From Irineochytrium annulatum (Eukaryota; Chytridiomycota; Chytridiomycetes; Chytridiales; Chytridiaceae), in the NCBI GenBank assembly GCA_027600665.1, contig JADGJL010000295.1, positions 1 to 26,363 of the forward strand: a stretch of 26,363 nt of DNA, in the 5' to 3' direction. The notes beneath the pieces are model-generated. The model did no database searches. It was given only the letters and a program-made list of their open reading frames with translations, and was not told where the DNA came from. Shown piece by piece: positions 3,773-23,497 of this stretch (position 1 is the stretch's first letter; each line of letters starts with the position of its first letter). The position numbers and the translations under genes were made by a program.

Positions 3773-5437
3773 ATGGTCGACCGCGTCACAACCGGAATGC
3801 AGAAGATGCAACTTAACAACAACAGCCGGTGGGAACAGCCAGTTTCTATTCTGCAATCAACGCTGACGTTGCTCATTCTTGTCCCAAATTAGACCACAAT
3901 CATCCCAGCAGCAGCAGCAACAACAGCAACCGCGTGCCAACAACAATGTTAATAGGAATGGCAACACTGGCAACAACACGAACGATGGGGAGGACTGGCG
4001 ATCAAATCTGAAAATGCCGACGAAGGACGCAAGGCCACAGACGGAGGATGTCACAAAGACGAAGGGGAACGATTTTGAGGACTTCCACATTAAAAGAGAG
4101 CTGATGATGGGTTTATTTGAGGCCGGTTTTGAGAGACCTAGTCCGATTCAGGAGGAGGCCATCCCGATTGCTTTGACTGGAAGGCATATTCGTGAGTTCA
4201 CCTCCATTGCGTCGATTGTCGAGCTGTGCTTGGGGTTTTGATTCGTATCTGTAGTTGCAAGAGCAAAGAACGGGACGGGAAAGACGGGTGCTTTTGTGAT
4301 CCCGACACTAGAGCGAATTGACGCCTCGAAAAACAAAATTCAAGGTTGGTTGCTATTTACATCCATCCCGCTCATTGAATGACGTTTTGCTAGCCCTCAT
4401 TCTTGTCCCGACGAGAGAATTGGCCCTTCAAACTTCGCAGGTGTGCAAGACCTTGGGGAAGCATTTGAACGTTCAGGTTATGGTGACCACCGGCGGAACC
4501 ACTTTAAAGGACGACATTCTCCGATTGGGTCAGACGGGTGAGTACCTCCTTTGCTCAATGCGTAGGCTATTTATCGTTATTAATCCTTACCGTAGTCCAT
4601 GTTCTCGTTGGGACTCCGGGCCGTATCCTTGATCTTGCAGGAAAAGGCGTCGCGTCGCTGACCGATTGCGGCATCCTTGTCATGGACGAGGCGGACAAGC
4701 TCCTTTCTCCGGAGTTCCAACCGATTATCGAGCAGCTGATCGCACATCTCCCGAAGCCACCGCTACCGCGCCAGATCATGCTATTTTCGGCAACCTTCCC
4801 AATCGTCGTGAAGCATTTTAAGGACAAATACCTTTCGAAGCCGTACGAGATCAACCTCATGGACGAGCTCACGCTCCGCGGTGTGACGCAGTTCTACGCG
4901 TTCGTCGAAGAGAGGCAGAAGGTCCATTGCCTGAACACGCTGTTTTCAAAGCTTCAGATCAACCAATCGATTATCTTTTGCAACTCGACGTCGCGGGTCG
5001 AACTACTCGCGAAGAAAATTACGGAGCTCGGCTTCTCCTGCTTTTACATTCACGCGAAGATGCTGCAGGCGCACCGAAACCGCGTATTCCACGACTTCAG
5101 GAATGGGAAGACCAGGCACTTGGTATGCTCCGACTTGTTGACCAGGGGTATCGATATCCAAGCCGTTAATGTCGTCATCAACTTCGACTTCCCGAAAAAT
5201 GCGGAGACGTACTTGCATCGAATTGGGAGATCTGGGCGGTTTGGGCACCTTGGCTTGGGTTTGTAATTCTCTTTCGGTTTCCCAAGATTTGCAACTTCAT
5301 TAAATTACTTTTATGCAGCTATCAACCTCATCACTTATGACGACCGTTATAACTTCTACCGCATCGAGCAGGAGCTTGGAACTGAGATAGCGCCCATCCC
5401 ACCCGTCATCGACAAGAGCCTCTACGTTGCGCCGTGA
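3773..5437 (+). CDS. DHH1: DDX6/Dhh1 DEAD-box RNA helicase
   Basis: Six exons: 3773-3828, 3893-4191, 4255-4344, 4394-4537, 4596-5258 and 5319-5437, with consistent phases; 456 residues. The family acts in P-bodies, promoting decapping and translational repression. Visible features are a Gln/Asn-rich N-terminus (eight consecutive Gln at about residues 24-31), the block DEDs' equivalent [20 protein letters not shown], the Q-motif [11 protein letters not shown], Walker A AKNGTGKT (122-129), PTRELA, TPGR, DEAD (227-230), SAT (261-263), RGIDIQAVN and [10 protein letters not shown] (from about 404). It ends with the family signature [18 protein letters not shown]. The first donor (GTGGGA) is non-consensus, but it joins the N-terminus in phase. 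All nucleotide-binding and helicase motifs are intact, so the gene looks functional. Confidence 0.95.
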
Positions 5438-8529: not shown

Positions 8530-10284
8530 TCATTCGCCCTTTGACTGCAAGTGAATGTCGTTAAAAAAAAAAAAAGGAACAAGCCAAGCTTAATCGCAAC
8601 AGAAAAGCATCGAATAACACCCCACCTTCTTCCACTCCTCCATCCGCTCATCATACGCCTCCTTCTCCTTCCGATACTCCGCGTTATACAGATCCCTCAC
8701 ATCCTCCTCTAGACTCTTCCACGTGATCCCAGCAAGCCTGGCGACATCCTTAGACTTCAACTCCTTGATCTCTGCAACAACGCTCCCATCCTCGTTCCGC
8801 AACTTCCTGTCGCCCCTCCGCACGGCAGCCATGAACCTGAAATACCCCGTCGCCGGCTGCTTTGGCTTATCCTCATCATTCTCATCAGCTTTATCCTCTT
8901 TAGTCTTCTTGTCCTTAAGCACCTTCGCGATCTTTTTCAAGAGCACCTCCCGCTTCTTTTCGACGGCCTCCTCCTCGAGCGACCGTTCCGCCAAATATTT
9001 GTCCACGTCCTCCTTGTACAACTTCCGCGCCTCGTCCGCCCGCCGCTGGTACGGCGCGCGATCCTCCTCAGACATCCCCTTCCACTCGGCGCCTGCGCGC
9101 GCGGAGACTGCCGCGACATCGGACTTGAGGGATGGGTCCTCGCCGACATAGAACTCCCGCTTGGCGTTGACGAAGAAGATGTAGGCCGACATGGGTCGCT
9201 TGGGAGCGTTGCTGTCGGGGAGGGCGCGGAGTTCCTTCTTAAGCTCCTTCAGCTTGTTGGCCTTAGCTATTGGGAAAGTGAATAACATGATGGCAAAGGA
9301 CCCATAAAACGACGCTTGATAAGTACCCATGGCCTTCTCCGCCGGTGTTTTGGGTTCGGCATCGTCCGCTACCAGGGAAATCTTTAATTACTAATGGACG
9401 ATGTTTTTTGCATACCTGCTGCCTTTTTTTTCCTCGTCGTCTTCGGTTTATCTTCCTCGCCGTCCTCGACAGCTGTGATCGAGTTCAATAAACGGCTGAA
9501 GGACTTTTGCATACCCGGAGCTTTCTTTTTCCTTGTTTTCAGCTTCTCATCGTCCTCTTTGGCATCTATGCTCGAATCAACAAACAATTGCAGATTTTGC
9601 GCCGACCTAGAGCTTTCTTCTTTCTTGTCTTCGGCTTAACGTCGTCCTCCTTTTGCTGGGCTGGGCGCGAAAGTTTTAATGAACGGCGTGAAGAAGGTAA
9701 AGCCAAATGCCGCACACACATTTGGCGATCTTCTTTGCCATATCGTCGTCCTCCTCTTCAAAATGTCTTTAGGAAATCGCGCAGAAGGGATGTAGCCATG
9801 TTCTGCACACCTGCGGCATTCTTCTTCCGCGTCGCCTTCGGTTCGTCGTCTGCCTCTGTATCTAGCTCGATTAGCAAACAGCAAACGCTACGCAAGGTTT
9901 TTCGCAGCACCTGCGGCCTTCTTTCTCGACGTCTTCGGCTCGTCATCGTCCTCCTCTGCGATCAGCAGTTAGTAAACTGCAAAGGAACGCGAAGCGATCC
10001 AGTTCACCTCCATCCTTCTTCGTCTTTGGCTTCTTCGGCTTCTTCGGCTTCTTCGGCCCGTCATCGTCCCCTGCCGCGGCCGTCGCAAATCCTGAAACTA
10101 CACCGGGCACAGCGATACCGAACGAGGGGAACAGCATCGTCTGCAATGACGCGGGGTGCCTGGCGACGCGGTTAAATGCGGTGGTGTTCGAACCCCGGCC
10201 TGCGATAAGCGACACCGTCAAAGCCGAGGTCCATGCTCGCGGTATTCGGCGGACAGCCGCGGCGGCTGCGTTCAGGATGTGCAT
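8530..10284 (-). CDS. Mitochondrial double HMG-box protein with mini-exon linker
   Basis: Ten exons: 10284-10008, 9955-9911, 9861-9811, 9755-9720, 9660-9607, 9565-9515, 9472-9416, 9368-9327, 9266-8626 and 8544-8530; 422 residues. The N-terminus (MHILNAAAAAVRRIPRAWTS, Arg-rich with no early acidic residues) looks like a mitochondrial presequence. A KKPKKPKKPKTKK stretch and seven short Lys/Asp/Glu-rich linker modules follow. HMG box 1 spans about 224-299 (NAPKRPMSAYIFFVNAKREF), an acidic/basic spacer spans 300-337, and box 2 spans about 338-418 (KPKQPATGYFRFM). This architecture fits a TFAM/Abf2-type mtDNA-packaging protein; that role is inference. The last intron (8625-8545) has a long T tract before CTTGCAG. 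If unspliced, the frame ends at 8590 with a different short tail. The fourth exon (36 nt) has a weak GTGTGT donor. Confidence 0.85.
9327..9955 (-). repeat. Tandem array of seven duplicated mini-exons and introns
   Basis: Seven consecutive exons of 45, 51, 36, 54, 51, 57 and 42 nt are all multiples of three and all bounded by phase-1 introns. They encode variants of one module: acidic residues, then Pro-Lys-Thr, then Arg-Lys-Lys-Lys, then Ala-Ala-Gly (examples DDEPKTSRKKAAG, DDEPKATRKKNAAG, EEDKPKTTRKKKAAG). The intron starts are also alike: two read GTATGCAAAA and another reads GTGTGCAGAA. This implies duplication of exon-plus-intron units rather than of exons alone. Confidence 0.8.
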
Positions 10285-10384
10285 GCTTGCAATGTATCGT
10301 TCGGAATGGTCCGGAAGTTGACACTTGGCCCAGTCTTTTTCTATTCAGGACACATCAATCACGAAAAGGGAAATCAAAGGAATT
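10285..10384. promoter_or_regulatory. 100-bp divergent promoter, HMG-box gene and ERV1
   Basis: Only 100 bp separate the two outward-facing start codons. No TATA box is evident. Both predicted products are mitochondrial (matrix DNA packaging and intermembrane-space oxidative folding), so shared control is a reasonable inference. Confidence 0.5.
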
Positions 10385-10894
10385 ATGGTGGAACCGATAC
10401 CGCCGTCCGTCGTCGATGGCGCGCCGACGACGAAGCCGCCCTGCCGCATCTGCGATGGATTTAAGAACTACGTGAAGACTGAGTCCGCGAAGACGCCCTC
10501 GTCAACCGCGAAGAAGTCGACAGCGAAGAAAGTCGCGACCCCACAGACCCCGCCGATGCCTTGCCCGCCCGACTCCTACGACCTCGGCTCCTCGACCTGG
10601 ACGTTCCTTCACACCATGGCTGCCTACTACCCTGAGGCGCCCAGCGAGAAGGAGCAGCGCACAATGACCAAGTTCTTCCGTACGTTCTCCAAGGTGTATC
10701 CGTGCAGCCACTGCGCGGAGCATCTGCGTGGGGAGATGAAGAAGAACCCGCCAAAGGTGCAGAACAACAGGCTGCTGAATCTGTGGTTGTGCGGGGTGCA
10801 CAATGAGGTGAATGTCAGGCTGGGCAAGCCGGTGTTTGACTGTGAGATGGTTTGGGAACGGTGGAGGGATGGACCGACCGATGGTAGTTGTTAG
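10385..10894 (+). CDS. ERV1: FAD-linked sulfhydryl oxidase Erv1/ALR
   Basis: A single exon of 169 residues. Erv1 is the FAD enzyme of the mitochondrial intermembrane space that reoxidises Mia40 and passes electrons to cytochrome c or oxygen. The N-terminal shuttle pair is in PPCRICDGFKNY (C20, C23), and a flexible Lys/Ala/Thr/Pro-rich linker covers about 32-58. The Erv/ALR domain has the FAD-contact run STWTFLHTMAAYYP (70-83), the active-site YPCSHCAEH (C107, C110), HNEVNVRLGKPVFDC and the structural pair C136/C153. All expected cysteines are present. I chose the ATG at 10385; upstream in-frame sequence to 10325 has no ATG. The gene is divergent from the mitochondrial HMG-box gene. Confidence 0.93.
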   Translation: MVEPIPPSVVDGAPTTKPPCRICDGFKNYVKTESAKTPSSTAKKSTAKKVATPQTPPMPCPPDSYDLGSSTWTFLHTMAAYYPEAPSEKEQRTMTKFFRTFSKVYPCSHCAEHLRGEMKKNPPKVQNNRLLNLWLCGVHNEVNVRLGKPVFDCEMVWERWRDGPTDGSC

Positions 10895-13469: not shown

Positions 13470-16400
13470 ATGTGGGTGAGTTATTGCTGTTGAGCAAGCG
13501 ATGTATCGCGCCGCATTGCAAGATTGTAGTGACTAGTTGCCTTCGGCAGGACATCTTTTCGGTCCAGTGTCTGGTTGACTCCCTGCCTCTCAGGATCGAA
13601 TGCTTTTGCCCTTACGGTGCGACGACTGTCTTTGGCGCTTTATTCAGCTCTTCTGACCGCCTTGGCAGACCAGAAGGTCTTGGTCGGCACCTCGGACGGC
13701 TCCCTTCTGCTCTATGCGCTCCAGGAGGGTCCCGTGTTTGGCATCCAGCTGGTGGAGACGCGGAAGTCGTTCTCGAAGAAGGCCGTTAACGATCTTGCGG
13801 TCTACAATAACGGGAGGTCGTTTCTGTGTCTGACTGGTAGGCTTATATGTTTTCGCCATGTTCCCGTGGCCGGCGGCTTATCTTGTTGGTTGTGTTGTGG
13901 CCATGCAGATGGCCAGCTCGACTCATACGACCTGTCAACGATGTCCCTGAATGCTCGGTTTCCGAAGACAAAAGGGGCCACGTGCTTTAAAGTGTTTGAG
14001 TCGAGCCGGAATCGGCAGAGGGAGGCAACGGGCGGGAGCGTCGACAGGACGAACGGCCACGGCTCGGTCGATGTCACCCGGCTGGCGGTGGTGGTCAAGC
14101 GGAGGGTGATGCTGTATCGGCTGGAGGTCTCACGCGGGGTAGTGGAGTGGAAGGAGGATGGGGTGGGTGCTCTCGTTACCTGCTCGATCTAACGACGCGT
14201 TGTATACGAAGAGTGCGAATTTGAGCGATCGGCCTCGCTCGTTGCTGTGGATTGATGAGCATCGGTTAGCGTTCGCAGTGCCGCGAGGTTACTCGTTCGT
14301 CACGTTCCCGGCCGGAAATGTGACGGACTTGCTAGTGTTTGGAGGAAACATCGTGAACGCACTAGCTCTTGGAGGTTTGACGGCGCCCGTGAAGATCTAC
14401 AAGCAGATAATAGTGAAACTGGATAACGGACAGCTGCTTCTTACGAAAGATGGTTTGTCGCCCTTCCAACGCAGTCTTAAACTAATATGGTGATGAAGCT
14501 GCTGGAGTATTCGTGAACGATAACGGCGCCCCGTTGATTGAGAGGGATCTCGAATGGCCGCAAGCTCCGGACGAAGTGTACTTCTGCCCACCGTACGTGG
14601 TCTCAATCATCAATCAAACGGTGGAAGTGCGAAGTTTGAAGTCGGGAGGAGTCGTGCAGAAGATCGATCTATACGACAGCCGCTTGATGATGTTGGATTC
14701 GTTGATCTATATTGCAAGTGGGAACTCGATATGGCGGCTGCTTCCACTCGACTTTGAAGATCAGGTCCGAATCTCTTTTTCACACTCGTGTCAGTTGGCC
14801 TGTTTACTGAGGCTCTTGGCTTTGCAGATTGAACAACTTATCTCAGCTAGTCGATTTATCGAGGCCCAGCGTTTAATAGAAGAGCTTGAGTTTTCCACCG
14901 AGGACGAAAAGGTAGAATTGCGTTGTTCCCATTGATTACGCCTGACACGTGGCCCAGATGGCGAACGTTATTCGAGTGCGCGGGCTGTACGCCCATCACC
15001 TTTTCACCTACGATAAGAAATACGAGGAGGCGATCTCCATGCTTGCCGAGTTAAAGGCCTCTCCGATCGATGTCATCAACCTCTTCCCTCAGTTCTCGCT
15101 CTTGGTTCAACAAGCCCCATCAACCATAACCTCGCCGACGATCGTACCTACGCCAGATCTGACATTGCAGCCGCAAGAGGAAAGGGTTGCTTTGAAGGCG
15201 CTAATGGATTACCTGATAAACCAGCGGACGGTGTTGGCGAAGCTGCGTCATCTTCAGAAGATCGAGCAGCAGCAAAATCGGAATGTCACGACCTCCCCTT
15301 TACCGTCCGCCGCCATACTGTCCACGCACGGCAACCCGTCTCGGCACACTTCCTCATCGACGGAGGCGTCGAATTCAATTTGGTCGGGCTCAGGGGATGG
15401 GTATCCGGATGGTTACAACATGAGGTTCCCTTCCGTTGACGACACCCTTTATCTTTGCGAGGTGGTGGATTCGACCTTGCTGCGGGTTTATTTGGAGGTT
15501 AACGATGCGCTTGTGGGACCATTTGTACGGATAAAGAACTTCTGTTCGCTGCAGGAGGGCGAGAGGGTGCTGCATGCGAGAGGGAAGGTGTCGGACTTAA
15601 TCGACTTCTATTTTACGAAGGGGGAGCATGCAAGAGCGTTGAAATTGCTCCTAAAGTACGTGTGTCTTCCGTTGCTTTTCCAGTTTAGCTAATCACTTTA
15701 CAGACGAGCAAATGAGTCAAACAAAGAGAAAAAGCCGTTGATTCGGTACCTGCAACGTCTGGAATTAGGAAGTCATATGACGCTTATTTTTGAGAGTTCA
15801 ATATGGTTATTGGACAACTATCCAGACGAAGGCCTTTCGGTATAGAAGTGTCAGCTATAAGCGAGCCTAACCTCCGCTCGTAAGGTTTTCACCGACAGAT
15901 ACGATGAAATATCACTGAAAGTGCAACGGAAGGTGCTAGACTTCTTGGAGGAGAAGTCACAATATCTTGAAAGAGGATACTTGGAGTACCTTATTGAAGA
16001 TCTCGGCTCCGAGACGGCCGATTTTCACGATCGGCTGATTTTGAATTATTTGCAATTCATTATGAGGGAATTAATGGGTGGAGACGTCAAAGGTATTCGT
16101 CTTTCTTTGTCTGTCGCTGATTTGGTTTGCAGGCGGGGATTACGATGCAATTCAAAAACGGTTGCTTCATTTCCTTGACTCTTCTCTTCACTACCGAGCG
16201 GAACGGCTCTTCCCTTTATTCCCTGAAGATGGTACAATTGGTGCCTGTTGCTGGTGTATAACGTCACGCTTAGAACTTCACGAGGAGAGAGCAATACTTC
16301 TCAGTCGGCTAAAGCGACACAGGGAGGCGCTAACGATACACGTTGGCGTGATTCGGGACATTGGATTGGCGCAGCGTTATTGCGAAAAGCATCAGCCGTT

Positions 16401-19075: not shown

Positions 19076-22000
19076 ATGAGACGACGGCTGCGCAGGCTCC
19101 TCGCGACGGCGACGCTGGTGATGCTCGCGCCCGACGCGGACGCGGCCTGCCCGCACAGTCCGTGCACGGTGAATTGGACCAGAAATTCGTGGAAGTGCTC
19201 TGACCCCAACAAAAACAGGTCGGCCCGCCAATGACCTACGATGAGTGTCCCGAAATCGCGATGCTGGTCGATGACCACTGTCGGCAGTTCCTCTGGGACG
19301 ACCAGTGCGTCGGCGAGGCCATCAAGTTGGGCTTTAACTGCGTAAATATCTTCCTTCTTCCATTTTATCAGTCCCGCTCCCCTTATCTGCGTTCTTTCTC
19401 GCGTCCTTCTGACCATGTAATGTTGCCAACCTCAGCCCTCGTTCAGGCCAAAAAGCGCTGGCTGCTCTCACAGCGTCTGCACCGTGGGCTCGCCTCTGAC
19501 ACCGTCCTGCGACCGGTGCGCGCAACGCGTTATGGAGCGGGAGGGCTTTTGCGGCACGACGTCGTGGAGCAGCGCGTGCGTCGACCTGGTCTCTGAGCTG
19601 TGTCCGCTAAACTGCGTAAGTTGCATGTTGGTTTAGCATTGATGAAATATATTAATCGAGGTCCAACAGAATGGAAACAACTTTGTTGACCACCTGGCGT
19701 TCTACTTACAAAAGCGCGGAGTGGCGACAGGGGTGCAGAACTACGTCCCGGTCGTCACGACCACAACCATGACCGTGGCGGCTGCGGCGTCCGCTTACCC
19801 GCTTACGTGCGATCATTCGATGTGCACTATCGGCAACCCCCTGTCACCGTCGTGTAACTCCTGCGTCGCTCAAATTGCCAGCGTCGACCCGCACTGCAGT
19901 ACAACTCAATGGGACGCGACCTGTGTGCAGGAGGTGTTCACCATCTGCGGTATCTCCTCGTGTGGATTATTTAGCCCGCCGACATCTTCGACATCGAAGT
20001 CTACCACCGCGTACGCCTACCCTAATTTTTTAAGTTCCACCCCTACCTCAACTCCGCCATTCTCCCCCATCTCAACAAGTTCCTCTTCTACCACAATCTC
20101 AACAATTGCCCCTTTTGTACCGCCGACGACAAGCGCAGTACCTCCTTCCATCCCCACTTCGTCAGTGTCTGCAAATGATGGCGATGGCGCTGTCCCCACC
20201 CCAGCGGCAACAATGACGGCCATCGTCTACCCGTGCGACGGCACCAAGACGTGCGCCGCAGTCCACCTGACGGTCGACATCTACGGCGTCCTTTTCGACC
20301 CGGAGGGTGACCGCGTCGGCCAAATCCCAAACCCGATCATCACGCCCCCTTGCACCGACATGCTCTCCTGCTACAAGCTCAACGACACCATCTCCCAGTC
20401 CGGCTCCATCACGGATCGATTCGGGCATGTCGTCGGCATCCTGAGTAACTATCAAGGTTGGCCGTGCTCCACCGTGTTCGATTGCGCGCTCGTCGGGCAC
20501 ACTATCGACTGCTACGGGAACGTGTACGACTCGAAGAACGTGTTTGTCAAGAGCGTTCCGAACTATGTGTGCAGCGCCCCACCGTGCCTCGACCTAGCGA
20601 CGTGCAACGACCTCGGGGATATCATCGATCTGAACGGGGACGTGTACAATATGTACGGACGCTTCCTCGGCATAATTCCGAACTACGTCCCGATTCTGCC
20701 GTGCACGAACTCGGCGGCGTGCACGAGCCTCGGGTACACTCTCGACTTTTACGGCGACATTTACATGAAAAATATTCTGGTGGGGACCATTCCGGGCTAC
20801 CAGGGGAAAGTACCGTGCACCGACGTATCCTCCTGCACGGCTTTAGGCGATACGGTCTCATATTGGGGCGACGTTTTCAGCGGGACCGGGTATTACCTCG
20901 GCACAATTCCTAACTACGCAGTATCCCTACCATGCACGACGCAGGCCCAGTGCGCGACCATGGGCTACAACGTCAGCCCGGCGGGCGATATTTACGACTC
21001 GTACGGGAACTACATCGGCACGTTGCCCACATACCTGAATTATGCCCCGCCCTGCTCAACGATCGTCACTTGCCAGCAGATGAACGCGACGATCGACGGC
21101 TTCGGGAACGTGTACGGTTCCGAGGGCTACTACCTCGGTACCATCGTGAACTACGAGGCCCAACTTCCCTGCAACACAGCCCTGAGCTGTAGGGACCTCG
21201 GATACACGGTCGATGCCGCCGGCTTCGTGTACGACAAATCCGGGACCTATCTCGGCGCGCTGCCCTACGCGGGTCTGTCACCATGTGGCGACTACGTCTC
21301 TTGCTCGCGTCTGAACGACACGATCGACCTTTGGGGCGACGTCTACTCCATCGAATCCGGTAAGCTCGTGGGCGCTGTGCCGGGGTACAGGCCCCCGCCG
21401 CCGCCGTGCGCGGACCTGCTGCAGTGCGAGGAGATGGGATACGAGGTCAAGTGGGGCGGGAATGTAATCGACCCGGCGTCGGGGGACTACATGGGCACGC
21501 TTGGCGTGTACCAGAACCCGAACACGACCGCGGGACTCCTGAGCCCGCTCGTTGCGCCGTGCTACACGGTGGCCCAGTGCAACGGGCAAGGGTTCACATC
21601 CGACCTGATGGGGAACGTGTACGACGGTCGGGGCGCGTTCGTCGGCCGGCTGCCCCCGAACGGGACGCTGCCCTGCGGGTCGATCGCCGACTGTCAGTAT
21701 GCGGGATACATCGTCGACTACTGGGGAGATGTCTTCGACCCGACCGGCGTGTACGTCGCCACGGTGCCGGAGTGGGTGCTGCTGCCGTGTTGGAACGGGG
21801 CCGAGTGCGCCAGCATCGGGCTCACGGTCGACCGCCTTGGGGACGTGTACAACTGGACGGAGGACGCGTTCATGTATCTCGGTACAATACCCAACTACGG
21901 GACCACGGCGCCGTGCGAGGAAGCGCCGCTGTGTGTGGCGGAAGGGTACATCATCAACGGATGGGGGGACGTCTTCGACAACACGACGGGCCTATTCATT

Positions 22001-22627
22001 GGCGTCGTGCCGGGCCAATTAACGTCGGCTCCCGTCGCGACGGCGCCGCCGTGCATGAGCAACGCCACGTGCGCGGCGCTTGGCGACACGGTCAATCCTC
22101 AGACCGGCGCGATCACGGATGCCAAGGGGGTTGTGGTCGGGAACGTGTACGAGTCGACAAGCGCCCCCGCTCCGTGCTTGAACGCGACGGCCGCCGGCTG
22201 CGCGGCGGTAAACTTGACGATGTCGGCCTCGGGCCAGGTGTTTGACAAGAACGGGACGAACCTCGGTAACGTATGGGGCACGTCGAACACGCAGCTGTGC
22301 ACTACGGTTGACACGTGCGCGCACCTGAACTTTACGATCGGGGAGCACGGCAATATCGTCGACAACGGCGGGAGGATCGTTGGCAACCTGTATGGTGCGC
22401 TGCCGACGACACAGTGTGGGTCCGCGTACGAATGCGCGCATTTGGGGCTTCTCGTGAACCCGGATGGGAACATAGTGGACAAAAAGGGCTTTATCGTGGG
22501 GAATGTGGCGCTGGCAAAGGTGGCTACCGGAGTGAAAGTCGGCTCGAAGGGTCTTCGACAGCGTCAGATTGGTTGGTGGTGGTTGGGGTCTGCAGCTTAC
22601 ATGGTCGCGGGGGTGTGCCTATCATAG
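19076..22627 (+). CDS. Secreted Cys-rich protein with 19 tandem ~40-residue repeats
   Basis: Four exons: 19076-19168, 19219-19341, 19436-19615 and 19670-22627; 1117 residues. A signal peptide (MRRRLRRLLATATLVMLAPD, cleavage near A23/A24) is followed by three related Cys modules (about 25-72, 82-132 and 179-230). These share C-x-H-S-x-C-T and a later W-x2-x-C-V motif; examples are CPHSPCTVGPPM, CSHSVCTVGSPLTPSC and CDHSMCTIGNPLSPSC. A Ser/Thr/Pro-rich stalk (about 231-318) leads to 19 repeats (about 319-1080) and a hydrophobic C-terminus (IGWWWLGSAAYMVAGVC) that might anchor it. The function is unknown; extracellular or cell-surface location is inferred. Similar Cys modules occur, from memory, in secreted proteins of chytrids and myxobacteria. 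Many N-x-S/T sites are present. The 50-nt intron at 19169-19218, with a CTGAC branch-like site, restores the first module. Confidence 0.85.
20228..22514 (+). repeat. 19-unit protein repeat, about 38-48 codons each
   Basis: The repeat consensus is P-C-x(5)-C-x(3-4)-G/N-x-T-x-D-x-x-G-D/N-V-Y/F-D-x-x-G-x-x-x-G-T-I/V-P-N-Y. Each unit has two cysteines and a G-x-V-Y-D-x-x-G-x-x-x-G turn-rich segment. Clear units begin at CTDMLSC, CLDLATC, CTDVSSC, CTTQAQC, CGSIADC, CTTVDTC and CGSAYEC. The last four lack the PNY ending and have a GNIVD..G.IVGN form, so the array has two sub-types. Individual units are well diverged, so the array is old rather than recently amplified. Confidence 0.85.
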
Positions 22628-23497
22628 AGAAGATGAAAAGCATTCTTGTCCAAATCAATAAATATCCTTTGTAACAGTGAGGTCAGCATGCTGAGATATG
22701 CTTCAGACTTCCGTCCATTATCGAGAGTCAACTTGACTGGCGAGGAATTCGGAGACGAGTGGCGACCTCACAAGCGCAGTAGAAGCAGGTAAGCAGTTGG
22801 GGTGCGGAGTTTGAAAGCTTAGCTGTGCTGTTTTCATGGAGTGAGTTTTGCTGGCAGTGTTGCGACCATGGAAGTGGGGACAGTATTATTACATGCGGGA
22901 ACTCGCTGGAATGGGGTTGCTTGGAAGAAGAACCCCTCTTTTTTCGATTTCGATCCGCGCCGACCTCAAGCACAACGGGGTCCAGCGGGTCGCGGCTGGT
23001 CGCGGACCGTGAGCACAGAGCTTGTCCGGCCGCCCGCGAACCCTTCGCCCGGCGCGGTCGAAGGCCTCCGTCGGGAAGCCCGTCCCCACGCCGCCGTCGT
23101 CCGACCAGAGTGGTCGGGACGTCGACAAGGTCCGCTTGGCGCGGACCTGTGTGAAGAAAGCAAGATGGGGTCCACGTTCTTTTTGTCCAACAGGCCAACT
23201 CGGAATTTGATTTCCAGCGGATATTCCCGTCCTGTACCGCGCACTTCCCATTACTCCATATCCCAGCACTCCCGGCTCCCTGTCGAAGTCCCCTTCCTTG
23301 TTGCCGCGCCCCTGATCAACCTCCTCTACAGCGCCGACGATCGCCGTCGTCGAGTTGGAGCCAACAACTTGAGGTGTGAGAGCTGCGATGTGGCCTGGAA
23401 AGTTAACCTCCCACGTGAACTCGTCCAGCGGCTCGCATCAGACCTCAGAGGGCGGCATCTGTGAACCCACGGTACACAGAGATCAGCCAGCTCGGGA
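22628..23497. other. Gap with unassigned open frame (22868-23464)
   Basis: This region holds the 3' flank of the repeat-protein gene and the 5' flank of the next gene. A 198-codon ATG-initiated open frame on the plus strand (22868-23464) is in the same frame as the downstream gene and ends at a TGA 33 nt before its proposed ATG. It is Arg/Pro-rich and unrecognised, and overlapping frames are open on both strands because the stretch 22945-23165 is GC-rich. It may contain 5' exons of the next gene that I could not resolve. Confidence 0.4.
22657..22662 (+). terminator. Poly(A) signal of the secreted repeat protein gene
   Basis: AATAAA, 30 nt past the TAG stop at 22627, followed by a T-rich stretch. 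Confidence 0.55.

Follow-up and report, generated by a model that had tools for sequence, protein, structure and literature searches.

Descriptions of fungal adhesins are rare outside the Ascomycota, particularly in phyla outside Dikarya, according to the sections of a 2018 review on which we draw (PMC6023273). The ascomycete plan outlined in those sections consists of a signal, an N-terminal head, a Ser/Thr stalk, repeats and a GPI signal, and Cys-rich regions and GPI signals are recorded for 16 and 18 of the catalogued adhesins, respectively (PMC6023273). A second described system is BAD-1 of Blastomyces, which the available text of two sources presents as a surface protein, secreted and roughly 1100 residues in length, with a separate binding domain and a long tandem array in which every repeat has one Cys pair (PMC6023273, PMC3708853). 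The same portion of the review presents BAD-1 as a protein without a GPI signal, in which the wall-binding domain is C-terminal (PMC6023273). Two protein families also enter the comparison, DUF3659 (PF12396) and PF26780. Both are catalogued without known function, and for PF26780 neither a solved relative nor a ligand is known; no paper naming DUF3659, PF12396 or PF26780 was found in the literature searched, outside which most subscription journals lie.

The gene considered here occupies positions 19076-22627 on the forward strand of the window, by which we mean the whole 26,363-nucleotide stretch analysed from the chytrid Irineochytrium annulatum. We suspect that it encodes a wall- or GPI-anchored surface protein, in which PF26780 heads would be carried on a disulfide-braced spacer in the manner of an ascomycete adhesin, and we regard this reading as moderately probable. 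The grounds for it are the order of the parts together with the hydrophobic end, the DUF3659 score, the predicted order of the repeats, the N-glycosylation sequons and the acidic character of the array. As far as the sections consulted describe them, the Als/Epa/Flo-type GPI adhesins of yeasts have the same overall plan as this protein (PMC6023273), which by sequence has a putative secretion signal, a head, a Ser/Thr stalk, Cys-rich repeats and N-glycosylation sites. However, they have no Pfam domain in common with the window frame at E <= 1, and the repeats found here, in a chytrid, are DUF3659 units with paired Cys. For the Cys-paired repeat itself, the nearest working analogy is BAD-1, although the repeat of BAD-1 has 24 residues and the window unit about 39, with another fold and family. 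Membership of the BAD-1 family is ruled out by the absence of the WxxWxxW motif of those 24-residue repeats, which occurs 0 times in the window protein; HHPK is absent too.

The gene model was placed by hand from the sequence alone, and has four exons, all on the forward strand. Exon 1 (19076..19168) has an ATG, a basic start, a hydrophobic run and an ADA-AC site, and a signal peptide at residues 1-23 was judged by eye. Intron 1 (19169..19218; 50 bases, GT..AG, phase 0), in which CTGACC precedes the AAACAG 3' end, links the two halves of the first Cys module, the remainder of which lies in exon 2 (19219..19341). This intron is supported because removing it brings the first CxHSxC module back together over a change of frame. 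Intron 2 (19342..19435; 94 bases, GT..AG, phase 0) is followed by exon 3 (19436..19615), which includes the second module, and intron 3 (19616..19669; 54 bases, GTAAGT..AG, phase 0) by exon 4 (19670..22627), a frame that is open up to its stop codon and is supported by codon-position GC. A possible polyadenylation signal, AATAAA (22657..22662, forward strand), lies 30 bases beyond the stop. The spliced product has 1117 amino acids, and the coordinates given by the first-pass annotation, made without database searches, are correct.

That annotation had also described a secreted and probably long extracellular molecule with three Cys modules, a stalk rich in Ser, Thr and Pro, 19 repeats with two Cys each, and a hydrophobic end, and this architecture holds. 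The CxHSxC modules begin at residues 25, 82 and 179, with the refinement that the first has six Cys and the second and third have eight each; module 1 is split over exons 1-2, module 2 lies at 19463-19615 and module 3 at 19808..19963, all on the forward strand. The stalk (19964..20227, forward strand; residues 231-318) is 88 residues long and 59% S/T/P. There are exactly 19 two-Cys units, the last 19 residues of the protein are hydrophobic, and the signal peptide and layout agree with secretion, as far as sequence can indicate this.

The array of DUF3659-type units spans 20228..22519 on the forward strand. Units are about 39 residues long, with the consensus PC-x5-C-x3-G-x-T-[VI]-D-x2-G-x-V-x-D-x2-G-x3-G and a mean pairwise identity of 32%. 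All 19 units conserve both Cys and one Gly without exception; the Cys are spaced C-x5-C in 18 units and C-x7-C in unit 17. Unit 3 has two extra Cys, and the array total is even (40). The array is coding, judged by its composition, with GC of 55/48/82% at codon positions 1/2/3 compared with 35-46% in the three introns. A regular expression for the repeat core found 19 matches, whereas 1000 shuffles of the array's residues gave 0.33 on average and never more than 3; this result, the codon-position GC and the Cys pairs in 19 of 19 units rule out chance or a reading-frame artefact. Between units, 1010 of 2111 codon pairs for the same residue use different codons. Mean nucleotide identity between units is only 47%, and we therefore consider the units to be old. 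A recent DNA tandem repeat is ruled out by this low identity and by Tandem Repeats Finder, which reported no tandem array at the DNA level.

The first-pass annotation could not match the architecture to a described family; both main parts do have matches, the array to DUF3659 and the CxHSxC modules, which the annotation missed, to PF26780-labelled proteins. Its remark that the repeats loosely resemble DUF3659 was right as to the likeness, which is real, and understated its strength: the protein frame scores 90.7 bits against the Pfam profile (curated cutoff 24.8, E 5.3e-26), with no other Pfam family at E <= 1. The strong match to a characterised family that it had named as counting against its reading was thus found in part, DUF3659 being matched and its function not known. 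In two-unit pieces, DUF3659 was listed at E <= 0.036 for eight of ten and was not listed for two; a single piece (units 18-19) was above the cutoff. The Pfam profile has a length of 61 and covers parts of two window units. A six-frame search of the I. annulatum genome with DUF3659 gave one match above the cutoff and one below, and none of 14 controls had a match above it.

Searching proteins with the repeats gave P0001 as the sole homologue (DUF3659, 91.4 bits). P0001 is a bacterial-type Flp-pilus protein of the RcpC/CpaB kind, without the adhesin plan of the window protein, and carries its DUF3659 array of roughly 40-residue units in the middle of the protein. Being also of low complexity, P0001 exceeds the cutoffs of several unrelated Pfam families, a sign that repeats of such simplicity are prone to spurious matches; the window frame gave no such matches. 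With hhalign, the 19-unit profile aligned with the seven P0001 units over 24 columns (probability 93.6%, E 2.2e-7), a comparison with one other member only. In this alignment the helix-like KEQLAAAG of P0001 lies opposite the second of the two Cys in the window unit. None of the seven P0001 units has a Cys, whereas every window unit has a Cys pair around a predicted helix. The alignment therefore places the unit among DUF3659 repeats, with a Cys pair around its helix, and, relative to the single relative found, we take the pair to be an addition, as judged from these sequences.

Stacked beta-hairpins had been proposed for the repeats, and a hairpin is indeed predicted in each of units 4-6, but each also has a short helix, so the repeats are not hairpins alone. 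The prediction for these three units is ordered (mean pLDDT 82.4), and the disorder throughout that the first-pass annotation had likewise set against its reading is not seen. The pTM of the three-unit model is 0.49, which neither fixes the packing between units nor speaks for or against a stacked solenoid. No solved relative of the predicted units 4-6 was found.

A few two-Cys DUF3659-like units occur at three other loci of the I. annulatum genome (G000), on contigs C859 (5004-5321; L011), C548 (51155-51944; L012) and C877 (1738-1977; L013), where they are broken by stops or spread over different frames. They could represent copies in decay or, alternatively, intron-rich genes belonging to this repeat family. 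A search of the genome with units 11-19 gave no further locus, and the window locus is the only long open array found in the 26.9 Mb (1082 contigs). With at least three other loci of a few broken or frame-scattered units, the gene itself could be imagined as a decaying member of a once larger family, without a present role. We consider this very improbable, as this copy retains an open frame of 2.9 kb, all 19 Cys pairs, a GC of 82% at third codon positions and three clean introns.

In the same window, a frame for a sulfhydryl oxidase of the Erv1/Alr family (PF04777, 122 bits) lies at 10325-10891 on the forward strand. Ordinary housekeeping neighbours are a DEAD-box helicase (4538-5263, forward), an HMG-box protein (8590-9330, reverse) and a Vps39_1-domain protein (14949-15689, forward); identification of a neighbouring gene as VPS11 was dropped, Pfam assigning Vps39_1. 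Elsewhere in the genome, PACRG, a flagellar protein, is above cutoff, and there are many chitin synthase domains (best 773 bits), a family that was also above cutoff in 4 of 14 bacterial controls.

By sequence matches, the CxHSxC modules group with PF26780-labelled proteins. A module of one such protein, P0006, matches window modules 2 (E 4.8e-13) and 3 (E 3.9e-11). When two modules of another I. annulatum gene were used as the query, nine relatives were found among 28 candidates, all labelled PF26780. This is a precomputed label, given without a residue range and the sole Pfam accession common to the nine. PF26780 was not listed in Pfam scans of module-bearing proteins, and its profile is seemingly missing from the copy of Pfam used. 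Four of the relatives are from chytrids (Blyttiomyces, Irineochytrium, Zopfochytrium and Phlyctochytrium) and two from myxobacteria (Minicystis and Kofleriaceae), the other three being without an organism name. Secreted hydrolases are among the nine. Module 3 is predicted with three helices (pLDDT 96.0, pTM 0.77), and no PDB match was found for this structure.

In aligned modules, Cys are present at both columns 24 and 31 in 27 of 27 bacterial modules and at neither in 11 of 11 from I. annulatum. Their joint presence or absence suggests a disulfide between these columns that would have been lost or gained once. Another joint absence, of Cys at column 47 and at one of columns 16/19, is seen in window module 1 and at L044; in all of these patterns the aligned sequences are related, so the independent events are few.

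The I. annulatum genome has at least 15 module matches over nine contigs. Among four other module-bearing frames that were scanned, two encode S1/P1 nucleases and one a zinc carboxypeptidase, and one was unmatched. The nuclease and carboxypeptidase frames (L002, L004 and L006, on contigs C924, C203 and C893) have a C-terminal S/T linker and one or two CxHSxC modules, an arrangement that looks like that of enzymes carrying a binding module. The L002 frame agrees in 209 of 210 residues with a protein from Irineochytrium annulatum, which belongs to Chytridiales. A binding role for the heads is suggested because secreted enzymes of the same genome carry the module, as binding modules are carried. 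The link with enzymes is only partial, as two of ten bacterial module frames scanned with Pfam are proteases (one trypsin, one thermolysin), a third carries a MopE metal-binding motif, and the remaining seven match no Pfam family at 1e-5.

A search across bacterial and archaeal genomes yielded 113 module relatives, of which 80 were kept (L021-L100). By record title, the 80 include 65 that are myxobacterial or "Deltaproteobacteria", nine from Planctomycetota, for which the matches are weaker and mostly partial, and six with uninformative titles. Of 66 uncut bacterial frames, 54 have a module that begins no earlier than 60% of the way along, which fits an appended module; in P0007 the module is N-terminal. 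Judged from the sequences, the sharing of the module between chytrids and myxobacteria could reflect gene transfer. We can also conceive of a distinct class of chytrid adhesins, in which a disulfide-braced DUF3659 rod presents a binding module shared between chytrids and predatory myxobacteria, perhaps by gene transfer, both groups using it to attach secreted proteins to prey or polymers. This idea is tentative and, in our estimation, rather doubtful.

At the other end of the protein, a hydrophobic tail (22568..22624, forward strand; residues 1099-1117), recognised by eye and with a hydropathy window, is a possible GPI signal. Small and basic residues (GSKG) precede it, among which the attachment site may lie. 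The tail is only moderately hydrophobic, with a 13-residue hydropathy maximum of 1.76, and the array is strongly acidic (67 acidic and 24 basic residues). Both features would suit a soluble protein, secreted or part of the zoospore matrix. In such a protein the tail would have no role in GPI attachment, and cations or other ligands would be bound by the acidic GxVxDxxG loops. However, small and basic residues followed by a terminal hydrophobic run are the usual layout of a GPI signal, and this is what the protein has, so that a soluble protein seems improbable to us.

In the surface-anchored protein that we prefer, the signal peptide would lead into the secretory pathway and the C-terminal tail would be replaced by a GPI anchor, perhaps with linkage to the wall. 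Each of the 19 units is predicted to fold as a helix and a beta-hairpin, probably pinned by a disulfide between its two invariant Cys. Together they would form an acidic, N-glycosylated spacer, which may pack into a rod; all 13 N-glycosylation sequons of the protein are inside the array. The S/T/P stalk would be O-glycosylated and extended, and the three CxHSxC modules at the outer, N-terminal end may attach to surfaces, polymers or other cells. A long, Cys-braced and glycosylated array, as predicted here, would also suit a structural protein of the wall or cyst coat. In that case the wall would be reinforced or spaced by the array and its disulfides, with the heads fastening the protein to the cell's own wall polymer and no adhesion to anything foreign. 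Binding to the own wall by heads at one end would have a parallel in the C-terminal domain of BAD-1, in the part of the review available (PMC6023273). Yet the heads lie opposite the likely anchor and beyond the S/T stalk, a position that outward display fits better, and we think a purely structural role possible but unlikely.

In limited searches, neither a second protein with the same combination of parts nor a Cys pair in every DUF3659 unit was met elsewhere, and no paper on the I. annulatum genome was found in the literature searched, to which most subscription journals do not belong. Even with a role confined to the wall, the protein would still be a good illustration of a DUF3659 array braced by Cys. 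It offers a possible context for DUF3659 and PF26780, two families without a known function, and raises the question of why PF26780 is found in both chytrids and myxobacteria. As an intact candidate with a separable head, stalk and repeats, it makes chytrid attachment testable.
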